From NCBI GenBank assembly GCA_903929755.1, contig CAIYVZ010000200.1:1-64000 (forward strand): 64,000 nucleotides of DNA, in the 5' to 3' direction. The stretch is from an uncultured Acidobacteriia bacterium. GTDB taxonomy: Bacteria; Acidobacteriota; Terriglobia; Bryobacterales; Bryobacteraceae. Both the position numbers and the translations under genes were made by a program. Positions 1 to 7,523 of this stretch are shown here, piece by piece (positions within the stretch are counted from its first letter, which is position 1; every line of letters begins with the position of its first letter). Below the pieces are notes generated by a model. It was not told the origin of the DNA. It ran no database searches and saw nothing but the letters and a program-made list of their open reading frames with translations.

Positions 1-129
1 CTGCTGACCGTCACGCAAACCTGCCGCATGCAGAACCGTCACCCTCTCGACTACCTCAACAGCGCCATCCGCTCACACCGCCTGGCACAACCGCCCACGT
101 CCCTACTCAAGAATTCCCGCCCTACCTGA
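1..129 (+). mobile_element. 3' end of an IS66-like transposase gene (cut by window edge)
   Basis: An open frame enters at base 1 and stops at 127-129, giving about 42 residues: LLTVTQTCRMQNRHPLDYLN, then a short stretch with AHR-like SHRLAQPPTSLL. The pattern (L)x(TQTC)xxQxRxxLxYL followed by HR and a PxSLL tail is typical of the C-terminus of IS66-family transposases. This is recognition by eye of a short tail, so the family call is moderate. No terminal inverted repeat was recognised just downstream. Its last codons overlap, antisense, the 3' end of the truncated secreted-protein gene at 103-483, which fits an insertion having cut that gene. Confidence 0.55.
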
Positions 130-483
130 ACTGTTACAAAAGCCGACACCGCCAGACGAAGGCCACTGGCTCCCCCCAATACTGACCCCATAATAAGTCC
201 GATAACCAGCATTCGGTGTTGTACAGTACTGCACGGATTTGTTTGTTGAAGGATCTTTGTAGTTCCCACACTTGCCACAGTTAGGAATTGTACACGGTGG
301 TCCAGACTGGTTATTGGCTATTACTAAGGCATTGTTGGCTGTATCAGCGTTCTGGGCAGAGGCATCTGCGACGCCCACCGTCAGCATCAGCGCAGCTGCT
401 GAAGCCAGGGTCAATCCCACTCCGATTCCCAGGGATCTGCGCACAGCTCCCTGGAGCGTGTTTCTATTGAATTTCATTCTCAT
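103..483 (-). CDS. Secreted Cys-containing protein, truncated copy of the 3140-3964 family
   Basis: The gene encodes 126 residues starting MRMKFNRNTLQ. A hydrophobic signal peptide (about residues 17-44, ending ASAQ) is followed by an ADTANNA segment and a Cys cluster with PNCGKCGNY. The first 95 residues are close to the 274-residue product of 3140-3964 (same leader, same NNQSGPxCTIPNCxKC core). This copy then diverges and ends early, where its 3' end meets an IS66-like transposase tail, so it is probably truncated by the insertion. The 5' flank carries the duplicated regulatory block also found before the pentapeptide genes. Function is unknown; it is presumably exported. Confidence 0.6.
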   Translation of the reverse strand: MRMKFNRNTLQGAVRRSLGIGVGLTLASAAALMLTVGVADASAQNADTANNALVIANNQSGPPCTIPNCGKCGNYKDPSTNKSVQYCTTPNAGYRTYYGVSIGGSQWPSSGGVGFCNSSGRAGILE

Positions 484-590
484 AGTTTTTTCTCCGCAGT
501 GTAATCAGGTCCCTGGGCGGCTTCCCTTAGTCCTGGAGCACAACTTAATGGCACCAGTGGTACTCAGTATCTGCCCAGGCCTGCCTCTGA
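484..590 (-). repeat. Duplicated upstream block, copy 1 (shortest)
   Basis: This leader shares with copies 2-4 a stretch reading (minus strand) GGGACCTGATTACACTGCGG just before the start codon, a GTGCTCC motif, and the GTAC-N5-GTAC-like palindrome. It lacks the extended distal part seen in copies 2-4. It is taken to be the promoter/leader of 103-483. Confidence 0.6.
551..563. promoter_or_regulatory. GCAC-N5-GTAC palindrome (degenerate copy of conserved operator-like site)
   Basis: GCACCAGTGGTAC aligns with the perfect GTAC-N5-GTAC sites at 1439, 2779 and 4860. It lies about 70 bp before the start of 103-483. A regulator-binding role is inferred from conservation of the half-sites while the 5-bp centre varies. 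Confidence 0.4.
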
Positions 591-669
591 CGCATTGGCT
601 TTCGCTGTAGTCTGGCGAGTCAGGTAAAGCGAGTCTCCACCACGTTGTTACACTCAAAAATCAATGAAC

Positions 670-1356
670 TTACCAGCTACATTTAGTGCTGGACTCGCAA
701 TGAACGCCTTGGGCCGTTATGGTGGTCGTGTCGAAGCGAACCAACTTCAGGTTCGCCCCGGTCAGGTCCGCGCCGGTCAGGTTCGCGCCGGTCAGGTTCG
801 CGCCCGTCAGGTTTGCGCCCATCAGGTTCGCGCCGGTAAGGTTCGCGCTGGTCAGGTTCGCGCCGAGGTCCGCCTTGATGAGACTCGCCTTAACAAGGCT
901 CGCGCCGGTCAGGTTCGCGCTGGCCAGGTACGCGCTGGTCAGGTTCGCGCCGGTCAGGTTCGCGTTACTGAGACTCGCGCTAATAAGGACCGCGCCGGAC
1001 AGGTTCGCGCCGGCCAGGTTCGCGCTGGTCAGGTTCGCGCCGGTCAGGTCCGGGCGGACCAGAATTGCGCTGGTCAGGATCGCGCTGGACAGGTTCACGT
1101 AGTTCAGGCCCGCGCCGACCAGCATCGCACCGGTCAGGTTCGCGCCTTTTAGATTTGCGCCGACCAGGTTCGCGTTGATCAGGTTCGCGTTGGCCAGGTT
1201 CGCGTTGACCAGTGAGCAACCATGCCAATCCAGGTAGATAAGGGGCGGTTGATCAGTGCAGGCCGCCTGCGCAACGGAGGCCAGGAGCGTCAAGGTTATC
1301 AGCGCCGATGCGGTAGCCACCAGGATCTTGTTGAATCTAATTTTAATGACCTTCAT
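670..1356 (-). CDS. Secreted pentapeptide-repeat protein (copy A)
   Basis: Start taken at the ATG at 1356 (MKVIKIRFNK); an upstream in-frame ATG at 1395 lies inside the conserved leader and is less likely. The 228-residue product has a signal peptide ending about VAQA, a mature N-terminus ACTDQPPL with a second Cys in WHGCSL, then about 30 tandem A(N/D)LxG pentapeptides, predicting a right-handed quadrilateral beta-helix. It ends with a short tail RFDTTTIT and a Cys pair (HCESSTKCSW). Pentapeptide repeats give a structural role only; substrate and partner are unknown. Close paralogue of 1885-2697 and relative of 4278-4778. Confidence 0.8.
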   Translation of the reverse strand: MKVIKIRFNKILVATASALITLTLLASVAQAACTDQPPLIYLDWHGCSLVNANLANANLINANLVGANLKGANLTGAMLVGAGLNYVNLSSAILTSAILVRPDLTGANLTSANLAGANLSGAVLISASLSNANLTGANLTSAYLASANLTGASLVKASLIKADLGANLTSANLTGANLMGANLTGANLTGANLTGADLTGANLKLVRFDTTTITAQGVHCESSTKCSW

Positions 1357-1700
1357 TCTGAAGTTTTCTGCTTTCTGGCTCCGCAATGTAATCACGTTTC
1401 GGAGGCGACTTCCCTTGACCTTGGCGTAAGACTAAAGAGTACCATGGGTACTGTCAGCCTGCCCTCGTCCGCTGGATGCCGTCTTTCGAAGCGCCGAGCC
1501 TCGCCGAGCCGGAGCGACAGCTCGAAACTCAAGAACTGTGTTGTGTTGTTGTTCGTGGTGGCGCGGACGTTCTCCGCAAACGCGCAAGTCCCCAGTTACT
1601 CCCCAAGTGGTCCGCAGCTGGGCGGGGCGGACGCCACGGTTCTCGGCGGGGCTGGATCTCGTACTACGCCAATCCGTACCAAGCATGGGTGAGAAAAGTG
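1357..1700 (-). repeat. Duplicated upstream block, copy 2 (long form)
   Basis: From the start codon outward it contains the AAAGCAGAAAACTT leader, a TTACATTGCGGAG stretch, the palindrome at 1439-1451 and the 22-bp sequence TGCCCTCGTCCGCTGGATGC(CG), identical in copies 3 and 4. Beyond about 1510 it matches copy 4 for another 170 bp, where both carry a rightward signal-peptide-like frame. Roughly 80% identity to copy 4 by eye. Confidence 0.7.
1439..1451. promoter_or_regulatory. GTAC-N5-GTAC palindrome
   Basis: GTACCATGGGTAC lies 83 bp upstream of the chosen start of the 670-1356 gene. The half-sites are conserved in all long copies and the spacing to the start codon is nearly constant (82-83 bp), which suggests a transcription-factor operator. 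The factor is not identifiable. Confidence 0.5.
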
Positions 1701-1850
1701 TCCACTCACGCGAGTCTTCCCGTGTCCAGGCCTGTCTAATCCATTGCCTTCGAAGGGAACTACCTCTTCGTCCAGGGCGGAAAGTCGTTCCCGCGAAGCG
1801 GTGCGTTCATTGGGTATCCCCGTAGTCTGGCGAGTATCGTAAAGCGAGTC
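1512..1850 (+). pseudogene. Decayed start of a rightward secreted-protein gene
   Basis: One frame reads KLKNCVVLLFVVARTFSANA, a signal-peptide-like segment, then stops at about 1690. Another frame further on reads SIAFEGNYLFVQGGKSFP, which looks like part of a folded exported protein, but the frames are not joined. The same 5' fragment occurs after copy 4 (4930 onward), where a recognisable C-terminal domain also survives. Interpreted as a multiply frameshifted remnant; original function unknown. Confidence 0.4.
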
Positions 1851-1884
1851 TCAACCACATTGTTACACCCCAAAAATAATCAAC

Positions 1885-2697
1885 TTACCAGGTACATTTA
1901 GTGCTGGACTCGCAATAAGCGCCTTTGGACGTTATGGTGGTCGTGTCGAAGCGAGCGCCGGTCAGGTTCGCGCCTGTTAGATTCGCTTTTGCCAGGTTCG
2001 CGCCTTTTAGACTCGCGTTTGCCAGATTCGCACCGGTCAGATTCGCGCCGGTCAGGTTCGCGCCGGTCAGGTTCGCGCCGGTCAGGTCCGTGGTGCCAAA
2101 GTGCGCGCGGGTCAGGTTCGCGCCGGTCAGGTTCGCGCCTTTTAGATTCGCCTGGCTCACGTACGTGCTGGTCAGGTTCTGGCTGGTCAGGTTCGCGCCG
2201 GGCATGATAACGTACTGCAGTGTCGCCCCGAGCAGGATCGCGCCCGTCAGGTTCGCGTTGGTCAGGTCCGCGCCGGTCAGGAACGCGCCGAGCAGGTTCG
2301 CGCCGGTCAGGTTCGCGCTTGCCAGGTTCGCGCCGGGCAAGTACGCGCCGGTCAGATTCGCGTTAACAAGGATCGCGCCGGTCAGGTTCGGCGGCGCCCC
2401 TGACCCAGCCGGCCCAAGCGAGACGGCGGTCATTGTGGCGCCGGTCAGGTTCGCGTTGGTCAGGTACGCGTTACCCAGAATCGCGCTCGTCAGGTTCGCG
2501 CCGGTCAGGTTCGCGCCGGTTAGATTCGCGTCGGTCAGGTCTGCGGCGACCAGTAAGCAACCACCCCAATTCAAGTTGGCAAGGGGCGGGCGATCCGTGC
2601 AGGTCGCCTGCGCGACGGAGGCCATGAGCGTCAAAGCCAACAGGGCCGAGGCCATAGCGGTCGGGATCTGATTGAATTTCATTTCAATGGGTTTCAT
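1885..2697 (-). CDS. Secreted pentapeptide-repeat protein (copy B)
   Basis: Start at the ATG at 2697 (MKPIEMKFNQ); 2682 (MKFNQIP) is also possible and matches the MKFN start of its neighbours. The 270-residue product has a signal peptide ending SVAQA, mature start TCTDRPPL, Cys in WGGCLL, then about 35 pentapeptides of type ANLTG. These are interrupted once by a Gly/Pro loop (GPAGSGAPP), and the protein ends RFDTTTITSKGAYCESSTKC. The two N-terminal and two C-terminal Cys could cap the beta-helix by disulfides (inference). The 3' flank is duplicated with that of copy A (1822-1884 resembles 602-669). Function unknown. Confidence 0.8.
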   Translation of the reverse strand: MKPIEMKFNQIPTAMASALLALTLMASVAQATCTDRPPLANLNWGGCLLVAADLTDANLTGANLTGANLTSAILGNAYLTNANLTGATMTAVSLGPAGSGAPPNLTGAILVNANLTGAYLPGANLASANLTGANLLGAFLTGADLTNANLTGAILLGATLQYVIMPGANLTSQNLTSTYVSQANLKGANLTGANLTRAHFGTTDLTGANLTGANLTGANLTGANLANASLKGANLAKANLTGANLTGARFDTTTITSKGAYCESSTKCTW

Positions 2698-2862
2698 TGT
2701 GAAGTTTTCTGCTTTCAGGCTCCCCAATGGAATCAGGTCCCGAGGTGGCTACCCTCGCTCCTCCAGCAAGCCTTAAGGGTACCATAGGTACTGCTAATCT
2801 GCCCTCGTCCGCTGGATGCCGGCTTTTTTAAGCGCGAGCCTCGCAGAGCCGGAGCCACAGGT
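2698..2862 (-). repeat. Duplicated upstream block, copy 3
   Basis: Same order as copy 2: leader AAAGCAGAAAACTTC, palindrome at 2779-2791, the shared 22-bp TGCCCTCGTCCGCTGGATGC(CG) element and a GAGCCTCGC-AGAGCCGGAG stretch. Similarity stops at about 2862, earlier than in copies 2 and 4. Confidence 0.7.
2779..2791. promoter_or_regulatory. GTAC-N5-GTAC palindrome
   Basis: GTACCATAGGTAC lies 82 bp upstream of the ATG at 2697, in the same relative place as the sites of the other duplicated blocks. Confidence 0.5.
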
Positions 2863-2929
2863 TGCAGGTGGCGGTATACCCAGTGCGTGGCGTTTAGAAA
2901 CGACACCCCTCGACCCAGTCGCGAAAACG

Positions 2930-2980
2930 AAAACTGACCGCCCAGAGCTGCTTGTCTGCTGCTCTGCTGCGGTCAGTTTT
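2930..2980. terminator. Strong hairpin, candidate bidirectional terminator
   Basis: Perfect 12-bp arms AAAACTGACCGC and GCGGTCAGTTTT (2930-2941 and 2969-2980) enclose a second 6-bp stem (CAGAGC/GCTCTG). The A-rich 5' side and T-rich 3' side would serve as terminator tracts on either strand. It lies 160 bp beyond the stop of the leftward gene 3140-3964 and before copy 3 of the upstream block. The rest of 2863-3139 shows nothing recognisable. Confidence 0.5.
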
Positions 2981-3139
2981 CTGTCGCAATCCATCAACTC
3001 TCACCAGCATGGCTGGTTATCCTTGGCTGGGTCCTGCGCACTCTTTATGTCGTCGTACCCTCTGCGCGAGATCCACAGTGGCTGTTTATCAATCCGGGAG
3101 GTTGTAACACCTTAGCTCCAGACCTCACACGCCGATCCA

Positions 3140-3964
3140 TCAAGGTATGTTTGGACGCGTGGGACGAGTAGCGGGCAGACTGCTTTTGGGACTAGCTCCA
3201 ACGCCTTGTGCACCCAGGGAACCAGGCGGATAGGTTACCGATTCACAGTCGTATCTGATGTTACCCGCAGCGACGTTAGTAACGTCGCCATGGATGCAGA
3301 CGGTACATTTGGCGCCAATCTCAATATAAATGGGGTTGCTTTCCTGGTACCAGCCCCATGCGTCATTAATATTCAGTATGGTGTTTTGGTTGAAGCCCAG
3401 GAACAACGAATACGCCGGGAAAAAGAAATTGGGAGATGTGGAAAACACAACCGCTTTGTTTGGAACAAGCCCCCCACTCAAGACGACGCTTGTAACAGAA
3501 GATGTATTACCGCCTTTATTCAGGCTACTCATAACAGGATCATTTAGCGCTGTAACATAGCCCTGTACCGCATAGTCTTGGTTGAATGGGGAGTTTTTCG
3601 TAACGATTGCCTGGTTGCCGTAAGACGCTTTTCCGCCGTTGATAGACACTGGCGTTGCATTTGACGGCCCCGCGACTCCAAAAAAAAGTGAGTAACCAGC
3701 ATTCGTTTGGGCACAACTGGTGATTCGAGTATTTGACGAATCTGTGTACTGACGACACTTGGCACAGTTCGGAATTGTGCACTGTGGTCCAGACTGGTTA
3801 TTGGCTATTCCTGCGGCATTGTTGGCTGTATCAGCGGTCTGGGCGACGGCATTGGCGACGCCCACGGTGAGCATCAGCGCAGCTGCTGCGGCCAGGGTCA
3901 ATCCCACTCCGATTCCCAGGGATCTGCGCACAGCTTCCTGTAGCGTGTTTTTATTGAATTTCAT
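3140..3964 (-). CDS. Secreted protein of unknown function, full-length family member
   Basis: The 274-residue product starts MKFNKNTLQEAVRRS. A signal peptide (about residues 16-42, ending NAVAQ) precedes TADTANNA, a Cys cluster (PNCAKCRQY) and a Ser/Gly/Asn-rich body with aromatic segments, then a late Cys motif (GAKCTVCIHGDV). The N-terminal third is almost the same as 103-483. The start codon overlaps (ATGA) the end of an upstream open frame that has no start codon of its own. Unlike its neighbours it lacks the duplicated GTAC block; it has its own perfect palindrome 20 bp upstream. No known domain recognised. Confidence 0.65.
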   Translation of the reverse strand: MKFNKNTLQEAVRRSLGIGVGLTLAAAAALMLTVGVANAVAQTADTANNAAGIANNQSGPQCTIPNCAKCRQYTDSSNTRITSCAQTNAGYSLFFGVAGPSNATPVSINGGKASYGNQAIVTKNSPFNQDYAVQGYVTALNDPVMSSLNKGGNTSSVTSVVLSGGLVPNKAVVFSTSPNFFFPAYSLFLGFNQNTILNINDAWGWYQESNPIYIEIGAKCTVCIHGDVTNVAAGNIRYDCESVTYPPGSLGAQGVGASPKSSLPATRPTRPNIP

Positions 3965-4277
3965 GCTGATTCGGTATCTTTCTTGTCCAAAACTTGTTTT
4001 GGACAGGCTAAATGACGGCCTCCAACGGGTTGAAGCCTCGCTGGCCCCGTCAATGGCCTCAGGAGGTCTGTTCTGGCTTTTTCTTGCGTAGATTTGGCCC
4101 GCTCGCGCACCGCTTCCAGCCCGCTCGTATTTTCAACCGGCTGTGCGTTGGCAAGGGCTTCATTTTCTGTTGTCGTCGGTCCGCTGAATGAATCAACAGG
4201 TCAGGCTGTGAAAAACAAGCTCAATGCCTTATCTTGGACAGCAGTGGTTCCTTATCCGACACCTGTTTTTCAAAGCC
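3965..4277. other. Gap without an assignable gene
   Basis: On the minus strand a frame is open from 4200 down to 3961 (79 codons, including SGLEAVRERAKSTQEKARTD) and ends in an ATGA overlap with the next gene. It has no ATG, GTG or usable TTG start and is preceded by a stop at 4201-4203. It may be the tail of a lost gene or a chance opening. No conserved GTAC block is present here. Confidence 0.3.
3984..4005. promoter_or_regulatory. Perfect palindrome before the 3140-3964 gene
   Basis: TGTCCAAAA-CTTG-TTTTGGACA has 9-bp arms and a 4-nt centre, starting 20 bp upstream of the ATG at 3964. It could be an operator or a leader hairpin that limits ribosome access. Function inferred only from symmetry and position. 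Confidence 0.4.
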
Positions 4278-4778
4278 CTATCGCGAAAGCCCTACCGCGC
4301 CGGTCGTAATCGTGCGGGTAAAGATCGCGCCGGTCAGGTTCGCGCCGGTAAAGTTCACGCCTTGCAGGTTGGTGCCGGTAAAGTTCACGTTTTGCAGGTT
4401 TGCGTTGGTCATGTCCGCGCCTTGCAGTTTCGCGCGTGTAACGATCGCGCCGGTCAGGTTCGCGCCTTGCAGGTTCGCGCCGGCCATGGTCACGCTGTCC
4501 ATGTTCGCGCCGGCAAAGTTCACGCCTTGCAGGTTCGCGCGGTCGAAGTGTATGGAAGAAAGGTTCCTGCCGGAAAGGTTGCTGAATTGCATCGACGCGT
4601 ACCTAAGATCTGTCAGAAGTGTCATATTGGTCAGGTCACAGCCTGCATAATTCAATGTACCTGGCGTGTCAATTAAAGGGCACTCCGCATGCGCGACGGA
4701 GCCCATGATAGTCAAAGCCATCAGGGCCGATGCTGTACGTCTCAGGATCTTATTGAATTTCATTTGAATCAGTTTCAT
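4278..4778 (-). CDS. Secreted pentapeptide-repeat protein (copy C, short)
   Basis: Start at the ATG at 4778 (MKLIQMKFNK), with 4763 as the alternative. The 166-residue product has a signal peptide ending SVAHA, then ECPLIDTPG with a Cys in YAGCDL, followed by about 18 pentapeptides (ANLQG/ANLTG). The end differs from copies A and B: after GAIFTRTITTGA it runs into GLSR and stops, losing the terminal Cys pair and the aromatic end. It may be a truncated or diverged paralogue. The 5' flank is duplicated block copy 4. Confidence 0.75.
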   Translation of the reverse strand: MKLIQMKFNKILRRTASALMALTIMGSVAHAECPLIDTPGTLNYAGCDLTNMTLLTDLRYASMQFSNLSGRNLSSIHFDRANLQGVNFAGANMDSVTMAGANLQGANLTGAIVTRAKLQGADMTNANLQNVNFTGTNLQGVNFTGANLTGAIFTRTITTGAVGLSR

Positions 4779-5112
4779 AGTAGAGTTGTTTGCTTTCTCG
4801 CTCCGCAATGTAATCAGGTCCCCAGGCGGCTTCCCTTGACCTGGGAGCACAATCTAATGGTACTACAAGTACCTCCAGCCTGCCCTCGTCCGCTGGATGC
4901 CGTCTTGTTTAAGCGCAGCGGCTCGCAGCTCCGGGAGCGACAGGTTGAAGCTCCAGAAGTATGTTGTGTTGTTGGTGGTAGTGGCGCGGACGTTCTCCGC
5001 AAACGCGCAAGTACCCAGTTGCTTCCCAAGTGGTCCGCAGCCGGGGGACAGCAAGCCACGGTTCTCGCGGGGGCTGGCTTCTCGTGCTGCACCAATCTGT
5101 ACTCTGCACAGG
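4779..5112 (-). repeat. Duplicated upstream block, copy 4 (long form)
   Basis: Shares the leader (TTACATTGCGGAGCGAGAAA), the palindrome at 4860-4872, the 22-bp TGCCCTCGTCCGCTGGATGC(CG) element, and then a further 170 bp matching copy 2, including CGCGGACGTTCTCCGCAAAC. In one rightward frame (VLRKRAS-QLLPKWSAAG) most differences between copies 2 and 4 are synonymous, hinting that this stretch was once translated. Confidence 0.7.
4860..4872. promoter_or_regulatory. GTAC-N5-GTAC palindrome
   Basis: GTACTACAAGTAC lies 82 bp upstream of the ATG at 4778. The centre differs from the other copies but both half-sites are kept. Confidence 0.5.
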
Positions 5113-5372
5113 TGACAAAATGCTGACGCAGTAGCACAAATCCGGCCACCCGTACCAGTTGGTTGTTGGTCTGCGGCACCGGTTTCGGCGTCTTCAACGC
5201 AGCGGGGACGAAGGGCTTGAAGTCGGTTGCCGGCACGGTAGCGGCAACTCTCGGGGGCGTGGATGCAACCGCGTTTTATGCAGGCAACACGCCCCGCGTA
5301 ACGGACGGTCTGCAGCAGTTCCATCTCCGGATTCCTGCTGGCAAGCTTCCGAGGGCAGCGCAGCGCCAAGGA
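4930..5372 (+). pseudogene. Remnant of a secreted protein with a TIGR03437-type C-terminal domain
   Basis: A signal-peptide-like frame (LKLQKYVVLLVVVARTFSAN) runs from about 4944 to a stop at about 5115. After a frame change, 5127-5372 reads TNPATRTSWLLVCGTGFGVF, then GTVAATLGGVDATAFYAGNT, then GLQQFHLRIPAG. This order (NPA-R, GTGFG, V-A-LGGV-A-YAG-P, GLQQ-IPAG) matches the C-terminal domain TIGR03437, which is abundant in Solibacter and relatives. The domain ends abruptly without its usual last strand. Frameshifted and truncated, so called a pseudogene. Confidence 0.55.
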
Positions 5373-5611
5373 ATTATTTTCTCAATCCAGTCAATCACTT
5401 ACGCGCGCCACCCGCAGATGTTGCACCACCCTCATGCTCCAATTACAGTCGAGAGCAACCAAATGCGCAAAACAGGCCAAATCCCGAACCCCTCCGGCTT
5501 CCAAACCAGCCCTGCGTCCGGCCCCCGCCGCCCCGGAAATCCCGCAAAAACGTTTTTTTACGGAACGAACCCAGTGATCTCGCTGAAAACAAAAGGAAAA
5601 CGCCACTTCGG

Positions 5612-5671
5612 ACGCCGGGTTTGTGCGGGTTTTTTACCCCCAAACGCCGGGTTTTCCCGGGTTTTTACCCC
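5612..5671 (+). repeat. Two imperfect 28-29 bp direct repeats
   Basis: ACGCCGGGTTT, a short variable part, CGGGTTTTT and ACCCC occur twice (5612-5640 and 5644-5671). The T and C runs could form a terminator-like structure beyond guaA, whose stop is at 5757 on the minus strand. The rest of 5373-5756 shows no gene. Confidence 0.4.
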
Positions 5672-5756
5672 ACTTTTCCTGCACTCCCAACCCAGCCAAA
5701 ATCCACACGCCCGGGCACACTTCCACCCTCCATGCCTGCTTCAGCTCAGCCCGAAA

Positions 5757-7523
5757 CTACTCCCACTCAATGGTTCCCGGAGGTTTATGCGTCAGGTCAT
5801 AAAAGACCCCGGCGATCTCCGGTATCGCCATCAGCCGCTCCGCCATCGCGTGCAGCAGTTCATCCGGCATCGACACAGCGTCTGCCGTCATGCCGTCCAC
5901 GCTCTGAATCGGCCGCAAAACCACCGACTCCCGAGCTTCGCCCGCACCCACCGGGATCAGAATCACCGGAAACTGCCAGACATCTTTATCGAAACCCGAT
6001 TCGGCCGACATCTCCCGAACCACTGCATCCGCCTCGCGCAGCAAAGCCACCCGGCCATGCGTGATTGTCGAAGCGTAAACCCGCAAATTCGCCAGCGGTT
6101 CCCGTGTCGCCACCCGCGCCATCACTCGGTTCACTCCGGACGTTCGGTTTACCAGCTCCGTCGCCTGATCCTGCAGCCGCGAAGCTGCCGTCGGGAATGC
6201 ATCAATCGCCAGCACAGGCGCATACGTCCGGAAATCGCCCTGCACCCCAACCGACCGCACTGGAACAAGGTACCCGTCCGGTACTCTCTCCACGTGCAAA
6301 TCTTCATCGGCGCACAAGCACCGAATTGCCAATCCCGGACCCGGGAACGGATGCCGCTCCAGCAACATTGGCGCCAGGCACAGCTCCCGCCCAATCGTCC
6401 GAACTTCGTCCTTGTAGAAATCCGCCAGCGGCTCCACAATCAGCCCGGCTTCCATCAGTTTCTGGATCCCCGGCACGCGGTTGTGGTGCGTCTTAATCGT
6501 CGCCGCCTTCGCCGTTCCTCCGGACTCAATCGTGTCCGGATAAATCGTGCCCTGGCCCAGAATCCACTTACCGCTCAGCAGGCCAATTTCCTCGATGATG
6601 CGTTCCTGAATCTTGACGAACTGTTCACCAATGATATGGCGCTTCAGTTCCGGCTCCCGGATACCTTCCAGCGCTCCAAGAAATTCCTCAGCCGCATCTT
6701 CAATCCGCACCAGCCCAAGCCCTGCGAATGTATCTCGCACAAACTGCGTCTCGCCCTCGCGCATCAGGCCCGTATCCACATAAACGCCGCGCACATGGTC
6801 CACGCCCAGCGCTTCCAGGCAAAGCATGAACGCAACCGTGGAATCCACGCCCCCCGAAACGAAGAAGAATACCTTCCGGTCGCCGACCCGGTCACGAATT
6901 TGCTGTTTCACCAGCTCAACCCGTTGGCCAGGGTTCCAGTCTTTCTCGCAACCAACAATGTCGAACAGGAAATTCGACAGGATCCGCATTCCCTCCGTCG
7001 AGTGCATAACTTCGGGATGGAACTGGACGCCGTACATCTTCCGTTCCCGGTTCTCAATGGCCGCCGTTTCACAACTGGTCGTACTGGCCAATACCGAGAA
7101 CCCCGGCGGTGGCACCGCAACCTTGTCCTTGTGCGACATCCACACCTGCTGGTGATCGCTCACGCCAGCCAGCAGCGGCGAATCCGTTACTTTCAGGTCC
7201 AGCAGCGCCAACCCGTATTCGCCCTTGTCGCCCGGCTGCACCGTGCCGCCCAGCAGTTGCGTGATCAGCTGTTGCCCGTAGCAGATACCGAGCACCGGAA
7301 TCCCGGCCTCCAGCACCGCAGCTTCCATCGTGGGGCAGCCTTCGTCATAAACGCTGCTGGGACCGCCCGAAATCACGATCCCGCGCGCATGGCGCAATTG
7401 CTCCAAAGGGGTTTCGCTTGCGAAAACCTCTGAAGATACCCCAAGTTCCCGGATCTTACGCGCGATTAAGTGGCAATACTGCCCGCCCGTGTCCAGAACC
7501 GCTATCTGTGTTTTCGAATCTAC
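5757..7523 (-). CDS. guaA: GMP synthase (glutamine-hydrolysing), eukaryote-like dimerisation domain
   Basis: Converts XMP, glutamine and ATP to GMP in purine synthesis. The glutamine amidotransferase part is complete only if the frame is read upstream of the first TTG at 7406: it then contains VLDTGGQYCHLIARKI, the nucleophile Cys in GICYGQQ, and the His/Glu pair in GVQFHPEV. The ATP-pyrophosphatase P-loop is SGGVDST, and the C-terminus is KPPGTIEWE. At about 588 residues it is longer than the roughly 525-residue bacterial norm. The extra part lies in the dimerisation domain, which resembles human GMPS in order (PVRSVGVQGD, VNRV, LREAD, PVILIP, SVVLRP). No ATG, GTG or TTG precedes the first catalytic strand; 5' limit set at a GTA codon (7521-7523) overlapping the ctpA stop. 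Confidence 0.9.
   Translation of the reverse strand, partial: VDSKTQIAVLDTGGQYCHLIARKIRELGVSSEVFASETPLEQLRHARGIVISGGPSSVYDEGCPTMEAAVLEAGIPVLGICYGQQLITQLLGGTVQPGDKGEYGLALLDLKVTDSPLLAGVSDHQQVWMSHKDKVAVPPPGFSVLASTTSCETAAIENRERKMYGVQFHPEVMHSTEGMRILSNFLFDIVGCEKDWNPGQRVELVKQQIRDRVGDRKVFFFVSGGVDSTVAFMLCLEALGVDHVRGVYVDTGLMREGETQFVRDTFAGLGLVRIEDAAEEFLGALEGIREPELKRHIIGEQFVKIQERIIEEIGLLSGKWILGQGTIYPDTIESGGTAKAATIKTHHNRVPGIQKLMEAGLIVEPLADFYKDEVRTIGRELCLAPMLLERHPFPGPGLAIRCLCADEDLHVERVPDGYLVPVRSVGVQGDFRTYAPVLAIDAFPTAASRLQDQATELVNRTSGVNRVMARVATREPLANLRVYASTITHGRVALLREADAVVREMSAESGFDKDVWQFPVILIPVGAGEARESVVLRPIQSVDGMTADAVSMPDELLHAMAERLMAIPEIAGVFYDLTHKPPGTIEWE

Follow-up and report, generated by a model that had tools for sequence, protein, structure and literature searches.

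A duplicated leader carrying a putative genus-wide operator palindrome in a Bryobacteraceae gene cluster

Near the start of contig CAIYVZ010000200.1, from the 6.86 Mb genome of an uncultured Bryobacteraceae bacterium (assembly GCA_903929755.1), four genes for secreted-type proteins share a leader with a GTAC-N5-GTAC palindrome. The first 64,000 bases of this 68,681-base contig were analysed and are referred to here as the window; its minus strand carries all genes of interest. The first-pass annotation regarded the four genes as a small local regulon with an operator of its own. The question raised by this locus is whether the palindrome is an operator or a passenger in copied DNA. The reading that we favor, with moderate confidence, combines four duplicated leaders with a palindrome that recurs across the genus and would serve as the operator of a homodimeric factor also acting elsewhere in the genome.

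The palindrome in the window and across the genus

The GTAC-N5-GTAC core is exact at 1439, 2779 and 4860 and has one mismatch at 551 (GCACCAGTGGTAC); all four sites lie within one shared leader, as originally annotated. Sites are named by the start of this core, and the extended 15-mer begins one base earlier. The extended sites, all on the minus strand, are AGTACCACTGGTGCC (550–564, degenerate), AGTACCCATGGTACT (1438–1452), AGTACCTATGGTACC (2778–2792) and GGTACTTGTAGTACC (4859–4873), the last of which has its inner pair altered on both sides, from C..G to T..A. The near-constant distance to the start codon was also borne out: counted to the A of the ATG, the sites in front of the genes starting at 1356, 2697 and 4778 begin 83, 82 and 82 bp away, and the site at 551 begins 74 bp (start 477) or 68 bp (start 483) away.

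The bare 13-mer with one mismatch allowed has nine matches in the window against 7.4 expected, which is not above chance. The 15-mer RGTACYNNNRGTACY with at most one mismatch has five, against 0.38 expected from shuffles, and none of 100 shuffles reaches five. Four of the five are the leader sites, three of them exact and the one at 550–564 with one mismatch. A position weight matrix (PWM) gave scores of 18.2, 18.3 and 19.8 to the three exact sites, which are the three best positions in the 64 kb. The 44 intergenic reference sites score between 14.6 and 23.7 with a median of 20.2, a range that is narrow by construction since they were picked by exact pattern; the exact window sites are at or above 11, 11 and 18 of them. 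The degenerate copy at 550–564 scores 10.9, lower than all 44, and may be losing function.

A genome-wide search for the bare core returned 60 sites with the N5 spacing, 54 with N8, 35 with N4 and 25 with N6. The N8 count is near that of N5, while those of N4 and N6 are lower, so the bare-core count follows codon phase, and enrichment of GTAC-N5-GTAC over the in-phase N8 spacing was rejected. We examined 53 of the 60 N5 sites (the 50 listed outside the window and the three within it), and 20 of these are intergenic, both by an earlier simple gene mask and by its replacement, the mask of a periodic order-4 hidden Markov model whose training set of 535,517 bases comprised the window and the loci used. 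Sites whose arms enclose a pyrimidine and a purine appeared intergenic. As this Y..R refinement was noticed post hoc, 19 genomes of the genus were searched with the pattern GTACYNNNRGTACY and 70 loci were taken: 30 with at least one per genome, and 40 among the matches listed for four genomes (G005, G007, G008 and G013). Five of the 30 (L089, L091 and L093–L095) repeat places already sampled, one of the 40 (L134) overlaps L099, and three of the G013 sites listed are not included.

By the model mask, GTACYNNNRGTAC, the refined form, is intergenic at 40 of 67 sites in the genus and at 13 of 20 in the cluster's own genome, and the fully symmetric form at 26 of 36; the intergenic share of all bases is 13.8%. 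Fifteen other four-base palindromic cores in the same geometry served as controls. Over all loci, 52 of 86 GTACYNNNRGTAC sites are intergenic against 9 of 82 for the other cores (Fisher, 1.1e-11). The contrast is 39/66 against 2/27 in the other genomes, excluding own-genome locus L089 (p 2.4e-6), and 10/17 against 5/42 in the own genome minus the window (p 4.5e-4). The reverse geometry of GTAC, GTACRNNNYGTAC, is intergenic at one of seven sites. Spacing controls in the own genome, for each of which 20 regions were fetched, gave 3/21 for N4 and 2/25 for N8, and N5 sites lacking the Y..R pair gave 7/33. Information is limited to an approximately 17-mer, YRGTACYRNYRGTACYR, and flanks further out carry almost none; the palindrome does not, therefore, belong to a longer repeat, and a dispersed repeat family is disfavored.

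The palindrome thus recurs in intergenic DNA and is not carried by a longer common repeat, as expected of an operator, if less clearly when coding is called strictly (see below). It is probably one instance of a putative genus-wide operator class. The local regulon first proposed is accordingly upheld in part: the palindrome behaves like an operator in the genus but is not private to the cluster. In the mechanism that we propose, each leader carries one instance of RGTACY-NNN-RGTACY, a palindrome recurrent between genes across the genus on the statistics above. The site, which begins about 70–83 bp before the start codon in the cluster, would most likely be the operator of a homodimeric transcription factor, so that the cluster genes would be under a regulator with further targets in the genome.

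Several observations weigh against this reading. The Y..R refinement was spotted in the own genome before the genus test; the mask is mildly circular, as its training loci were fetched for holding the motif; and the genus search required one outer Y, a condition absent from the other-core controls. Nor is the N6 control low (7/21 intergenic), and in the own genome RGTACY alone is 26% intergenic and GTAC 19%. Under a strict rule that admits no open reading frame (ORF) of at least 120 residues in any frame, the contrast is 27/86 against 12/82 over all loci (p 0.011) and 19/66 against 4/27 in the genus only (p 0.19). Mask and strict rule together also shrink it, to 27/86 against 6/82 (p 7.9e-5) and, for the genus, 19/66 against 2/27 (p 0.029). 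Sites called intergenic at L012 and L064, where both masks err, lie within plausible ORFs, and that at L075 probably does too; mechanical ORFs, of which some are surely spurious, extend over those at L078, L083, L084, L088, L099 and L101. Between convergent genes, site-bearing intergenic segments show no clear depletion (4/45 against 26/179, p 0.46). Within the window, the four sites are copies of one another and not four independent events, a consensus scan of the region found no sigma-70-like promoter, and the same scan flagged 1438–1452 as terminator-like, one of eight such flags in the region against 6.4 expected. The direction of the intergenic preference of GTACYNNNRGTAC holds, and its size depends on how coding is called.

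Duplicated leaders and the genes behind them

The leaders, all on the minus strand, are located at 484–576 (copy 1, short, upstream of P0004), 1357–1512 (copy 2), 2698–2852 (copy 3) and 4779–4935 (copy 4). Copy 1 is supported by alignment to the others (492–554 to 4801–4863 at 86%; 492–576 to 2720–2804 at 73%), and copies 2 to 4 by comparison with the own genome, with family genomes and with one another. The four strong leader matches in the own genome (E 1.7e-12 or better) all lie in the cluster; nine others have E values of 0.4 or worse. Among 236 other genomes of the family, with at most three candidates per genome scored, only scraps of 22–32 bases were found in four (E 0.006–0.008), and these look like chance. 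As far as searched, the leader is private to the cluster.

The duplicated blocks (1255–1697 and 4677–5120, 78%; 2605–2867 and 4686–4950, 77%; 593–1142 and 1808–2390, 74%) extend through the signal-peptide coding sequence, the leader and DNA further out. The region at 4936–5400, upstream of leader 4, is partly duplicated at 1513–1697 and resembles, by eye, the remnants of a plus-strand secreted-protein gene.

Three of the genes behind the leaders encode pentapeptide-repeat proteins of secreted type: P0003 (670–1356, minus strand, 228 residues; PF00805, 6.1e-46, 154 bits), P0002 (1885–2697, minus strand, 270 residues; 1.5e-67, 223 bits) and P0001 (4278–4778, minus strand, 166 residues; 5e-27, 93.5 bits). 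With a gathering cut-off of 20.2 bits, all three are clear members of PF00805; they differ from its usual proteins in being short and of secreted type, a label based on N-terminal sequences read by eye, and in having an N-terminus with no relatives in the genomes searched. The fourth gene, P0004 (103–483, minus strand, 126 residues, ATG at 483 or 477), is an orphan of secreted type with no Pfam match, so that two unrelated protein families do sit behind the leader, as the first-pass annotation recognized. It overlooked a fifth gene, P0005 (3140–3964, minus strand, 274 residues, start codon at 3964), which by sequence comparison belongs to the P0004 family (72% identity over 99 residues) and lacks the leader. 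Just upstream of P0005, in the place of the shared leader, a perfect 10-bp inverted repeat, TGTCCAAAACTTGTTTTGGACA, is present at 3984–4005; this is its sole match in the window, with none in 100 shuffles.

The orphan family matches no Pfam or NCBIfam family above cut-off. P0005 has no relatives in the 236 other family genomes, in 395 other sampled genomes of the phylum, in genome, viral and plasmid collections (from which the own genome was possibly left out) or in the PDB. Likewise, the N-terminal 60 residues of the pentapeptide proteins have no relative in the same 236 and 395 genomes at E 0.001. These absences leave no relative for footprinting of the leader across species.

The orphan coding sequences 246–483 and 3733–3970 are 88% identical, and their match stops within a few bases of the common ATG; immediately upstream, 492–554 matches a pentapeptide leader at 86%, so gene 483 is a junction. 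On these alignments it is a promoter swap, an orphan coding sequence carrying a pentapeptide leader, while its sister at 3964 keeps another leader. The sharing of the leader is, on the same comparisons, ordinary local paralogy plus one promoter swap: a single ancestral leader gave rise to all four through segmental duplication at the locus, and one copy became fused, close to the start codon, to an orphan gene of unrelated sequence. The view that the cluster is "not simply gene duplication" therefore did not hold for the leader, since the palindrome-bearing copies lie in segmental duplications that run through coding and flanking DNA and the fourth gene acquired its copy at a junction near the start codon. 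The cluster resembles other local paralogous clusters with promoter exchange in its copied leaders and in the joining of an unrelated coding sequence near the start codon, and nothing unusual was seen in it apart from the shared operator-like site.

This history bears directly on the main alternative, plain paralogy, in which the palindrome is a functionless passenger kept through the kinship of the copies. The extension of the duplicated blocks past the leader and the lack of bare-core enrichment in the own genome are in its favor, and so, in part, is conservation within the leader. In the three long copies the palindrome arms are 100% identical, the rest of the leader 67–72% and the centre 20–80%; none of the eight arm bases varies, against an invariant share of 60% of columns, but equal conservation is seen in 17 of 161 windows shaped alike. 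With all four copies aligned, the arms keep seven of eight bases unchanged, against 41% of columns, and 4 of 89 such windows match this. A 23-bp block immediately upstream, CGGCATCCAGCGGACGAGGGCAG, surpasses the palindrome as the best-conserved stretch; it is exact in three leaders (1459–1481, 2799–2821 and 4880–4902, minus strand), and its final six bases are present in the fourth too. Downstream of the palindrome there is a second common stretch, GGGAAGCCGCC..GGACCTGATTACATTGCGGAG, and either may be the shared "22-bp element" of the first-pass annotation.

Given the equally conserved windows and the better conserved block, conservation alone does not single out the palindrome. The earlier annotation had tied its operator to a palindrome present elsewhere and better conserved than the flanking bases; it is present elsewhere, yet it is not the best-conserved part of the leader. 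The variable centre and the two-sided change of the inner pair in copy 4 are consistent with a palindrome under selection. Plain paralogy is further opposed by the preference of the extended palindrome for intergenic DNA in other genomes of the genus, and by the specified positions of the 15-mer, which keep their purine/pyrimidine pattern in all copies save for one base in copy 1. We regard it as a possible account of the palindrome, though not a probable one.

RNA hairpins, surface-protein regulons and known operators

The palindrome might instead act on the transcript, as a hairpin in the 5' untranslated region with a 5- to 6-bp stem and a 3-nt loop, perhaps within a terminator or attenuator. 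In the transcript strand, pairing is possible at all four sites (at the degenerate copy via a G-U pair), the inner pair of copy 4 is changed on both sides, and one copy, at 1438–1452, carries the terminator-like flag. However, among the 44 of 49 sites that have a facing gene, the inner pairs in the orientation of the nearest gene are T..A in 22, C..A in 12, T..G in six and C..G in four. An RNA stem should avoid C..A, yet this stem-breaking pair is commoner than the stem-keeping T..G, which favors recognition as DNA, small as the numbers are. Moreover, the folding of the leaders is not better than that of shuffled sequence (z 0.24, 1.18, 0.12 and -0.71), and no Rfam family reached its gathering score in 14 loci, with one chance-level match (E 2.4) in window 1–6000. 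An RNA hairpin is thus unlikely.

A regulon of exosortase and PEP-CTERM surface proteins was suggested by some neighbors of sites in the genus. The neighbor at L107 is of the exosortase family, above the cut-off of TIGR04178 and, in spite of a match at 1.4e-69, below that of TIGR04151; neighbors at L126, L135 and L136 exceed the TIGR02595 cut-off (the L126 match being mid-protein), that at L099 is just below it, and those at L086 and L104 are PEP-CTERM-like by eye only. Exported-looking genes are also modestly enriched downstream of sites by a home-made rule (30/59 against 67/191 controls, p 0.03). When PEP-CTERM genes of the genus were examined directly, however, the 30 loci returned held 24 that could be analysed, and just one of these 24 has the site, with at most one mismatch, within 350 bp upstream. 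Upstream of the same genes, seven other cores were found at 0/24 and two other spacings of the GTAC core at 1/24 and 3/24, the latter being RGTACYNNRGTACY. GTACYNNNRGTAC is present at 0 of 31 other loci with exosortase relatives, a comparison of low power as these are mostly from other phyla, and no window protein has a PEP-CTERM match. The operator of such a regulon is therefore not supported and very improbable.

Two of these loci have features of their own. The exosortase at L107:160–1056 has listed relatives mostly from Verrucomicrobia records, which hints at transfer between phyla. At L099:1501–1522, three GTAC half-sites in 9-bp steps lie between the PEP-CTERM-like gene (15.9 bits, cut-off 16) and a secreted-type gene; this spacing suggests that the site can be extended by half-sites.

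Among described operators, the cyanobacterial LexA box, given as RGTACNNNDGTWCB in the portions available of PMC3091678, is similar in being a pseudo-palindrome of GTAC half-sites at a similar distance upstream of the start codon, with sites such as AGTACTTATGTACT. It differs in its GTAC-N4-GTWC form, which is 14 bp long with even symmetry (PMC3091678, same portions), whereas GTAC-N5-GTAC has odd symmetry. A LexA box of this type was rejected, as all four window sites have the N5 spacing; N4 sites examined in the own genome are mostly coding. No SOS genes (lexA, recA, uvrA, ssb) were recognized among 55 site-neighbor proteins, with the 25 commonest of 97 and of 559 families covered. NtcA/CRP-type sites have the form GTA-N8-TAC and share the GTA...TAC ends, but the spacing here is GTA-N7-TAC. 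A link to this family comes from one gene in one genome: at L100:1502–1514, AGTACTAGAAGTACT precedes a CRP/FNR-type regulator gene by 31 bp, making this gene a possible case of self-regulation. In the portions available of PMC5541348, AGTACT occurs only within primers with a ScaI site. Literature searches with spellings of the motif found no paper, and those on operators, motifs or regulators of Acidobacteria, Bryobacter or PEP-CTERM systems found nothing relevant.

Candidate targets and implications

The neighbors of sites elsewhere are mixed and include outer-membrane barrel, NHL, TPR and PEP-CTERM-like proteins, an exosortase, glycosyltransferases and single regulators, several of them named by eye. 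The regulator genes occur singly in single genomes (an ECF sigma gene at L072, by eye a sigma-54-type activator at L076, the CRP/FNR-type gene at L100 and by eye a response regulator at L137), and a DNA-binding protein with a site in its own promoter, which the first-pass annotation proposed to look for, was not found tied to the cluster. The strongest candidate target among those seen in the own genome is L039:1492–1526 (C52:157341–157375), where two exact GTACYNNNRGTAC sites 22 bp apart, with extra GTAC half-sites adjoining, lie between divergent genes for, by eye, an NHL-repeat secreted protein and a dienelactone hydrolase. A wider proposal, in which RGTACYNNNRGTACY would be the operator for a still undescribed global regulator in this genus, acting on secreted and cell-surface genes, and would reach new, lineage-specific genes as whole leaders are copied onto unrelated coding sequences such as gene 483, is tentative, and we hold it to be rather doubtful.

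To our knowledge, few operators are known for Acidobacteriota. The palindrome, as a putative operator, provides a short searchable consensus and a list of candidate targets, with which the hunt for its regulator becomes testable. The cluster is also an example of how a lineage-specific gene can gain a ready-made control region through a join near its start codon.

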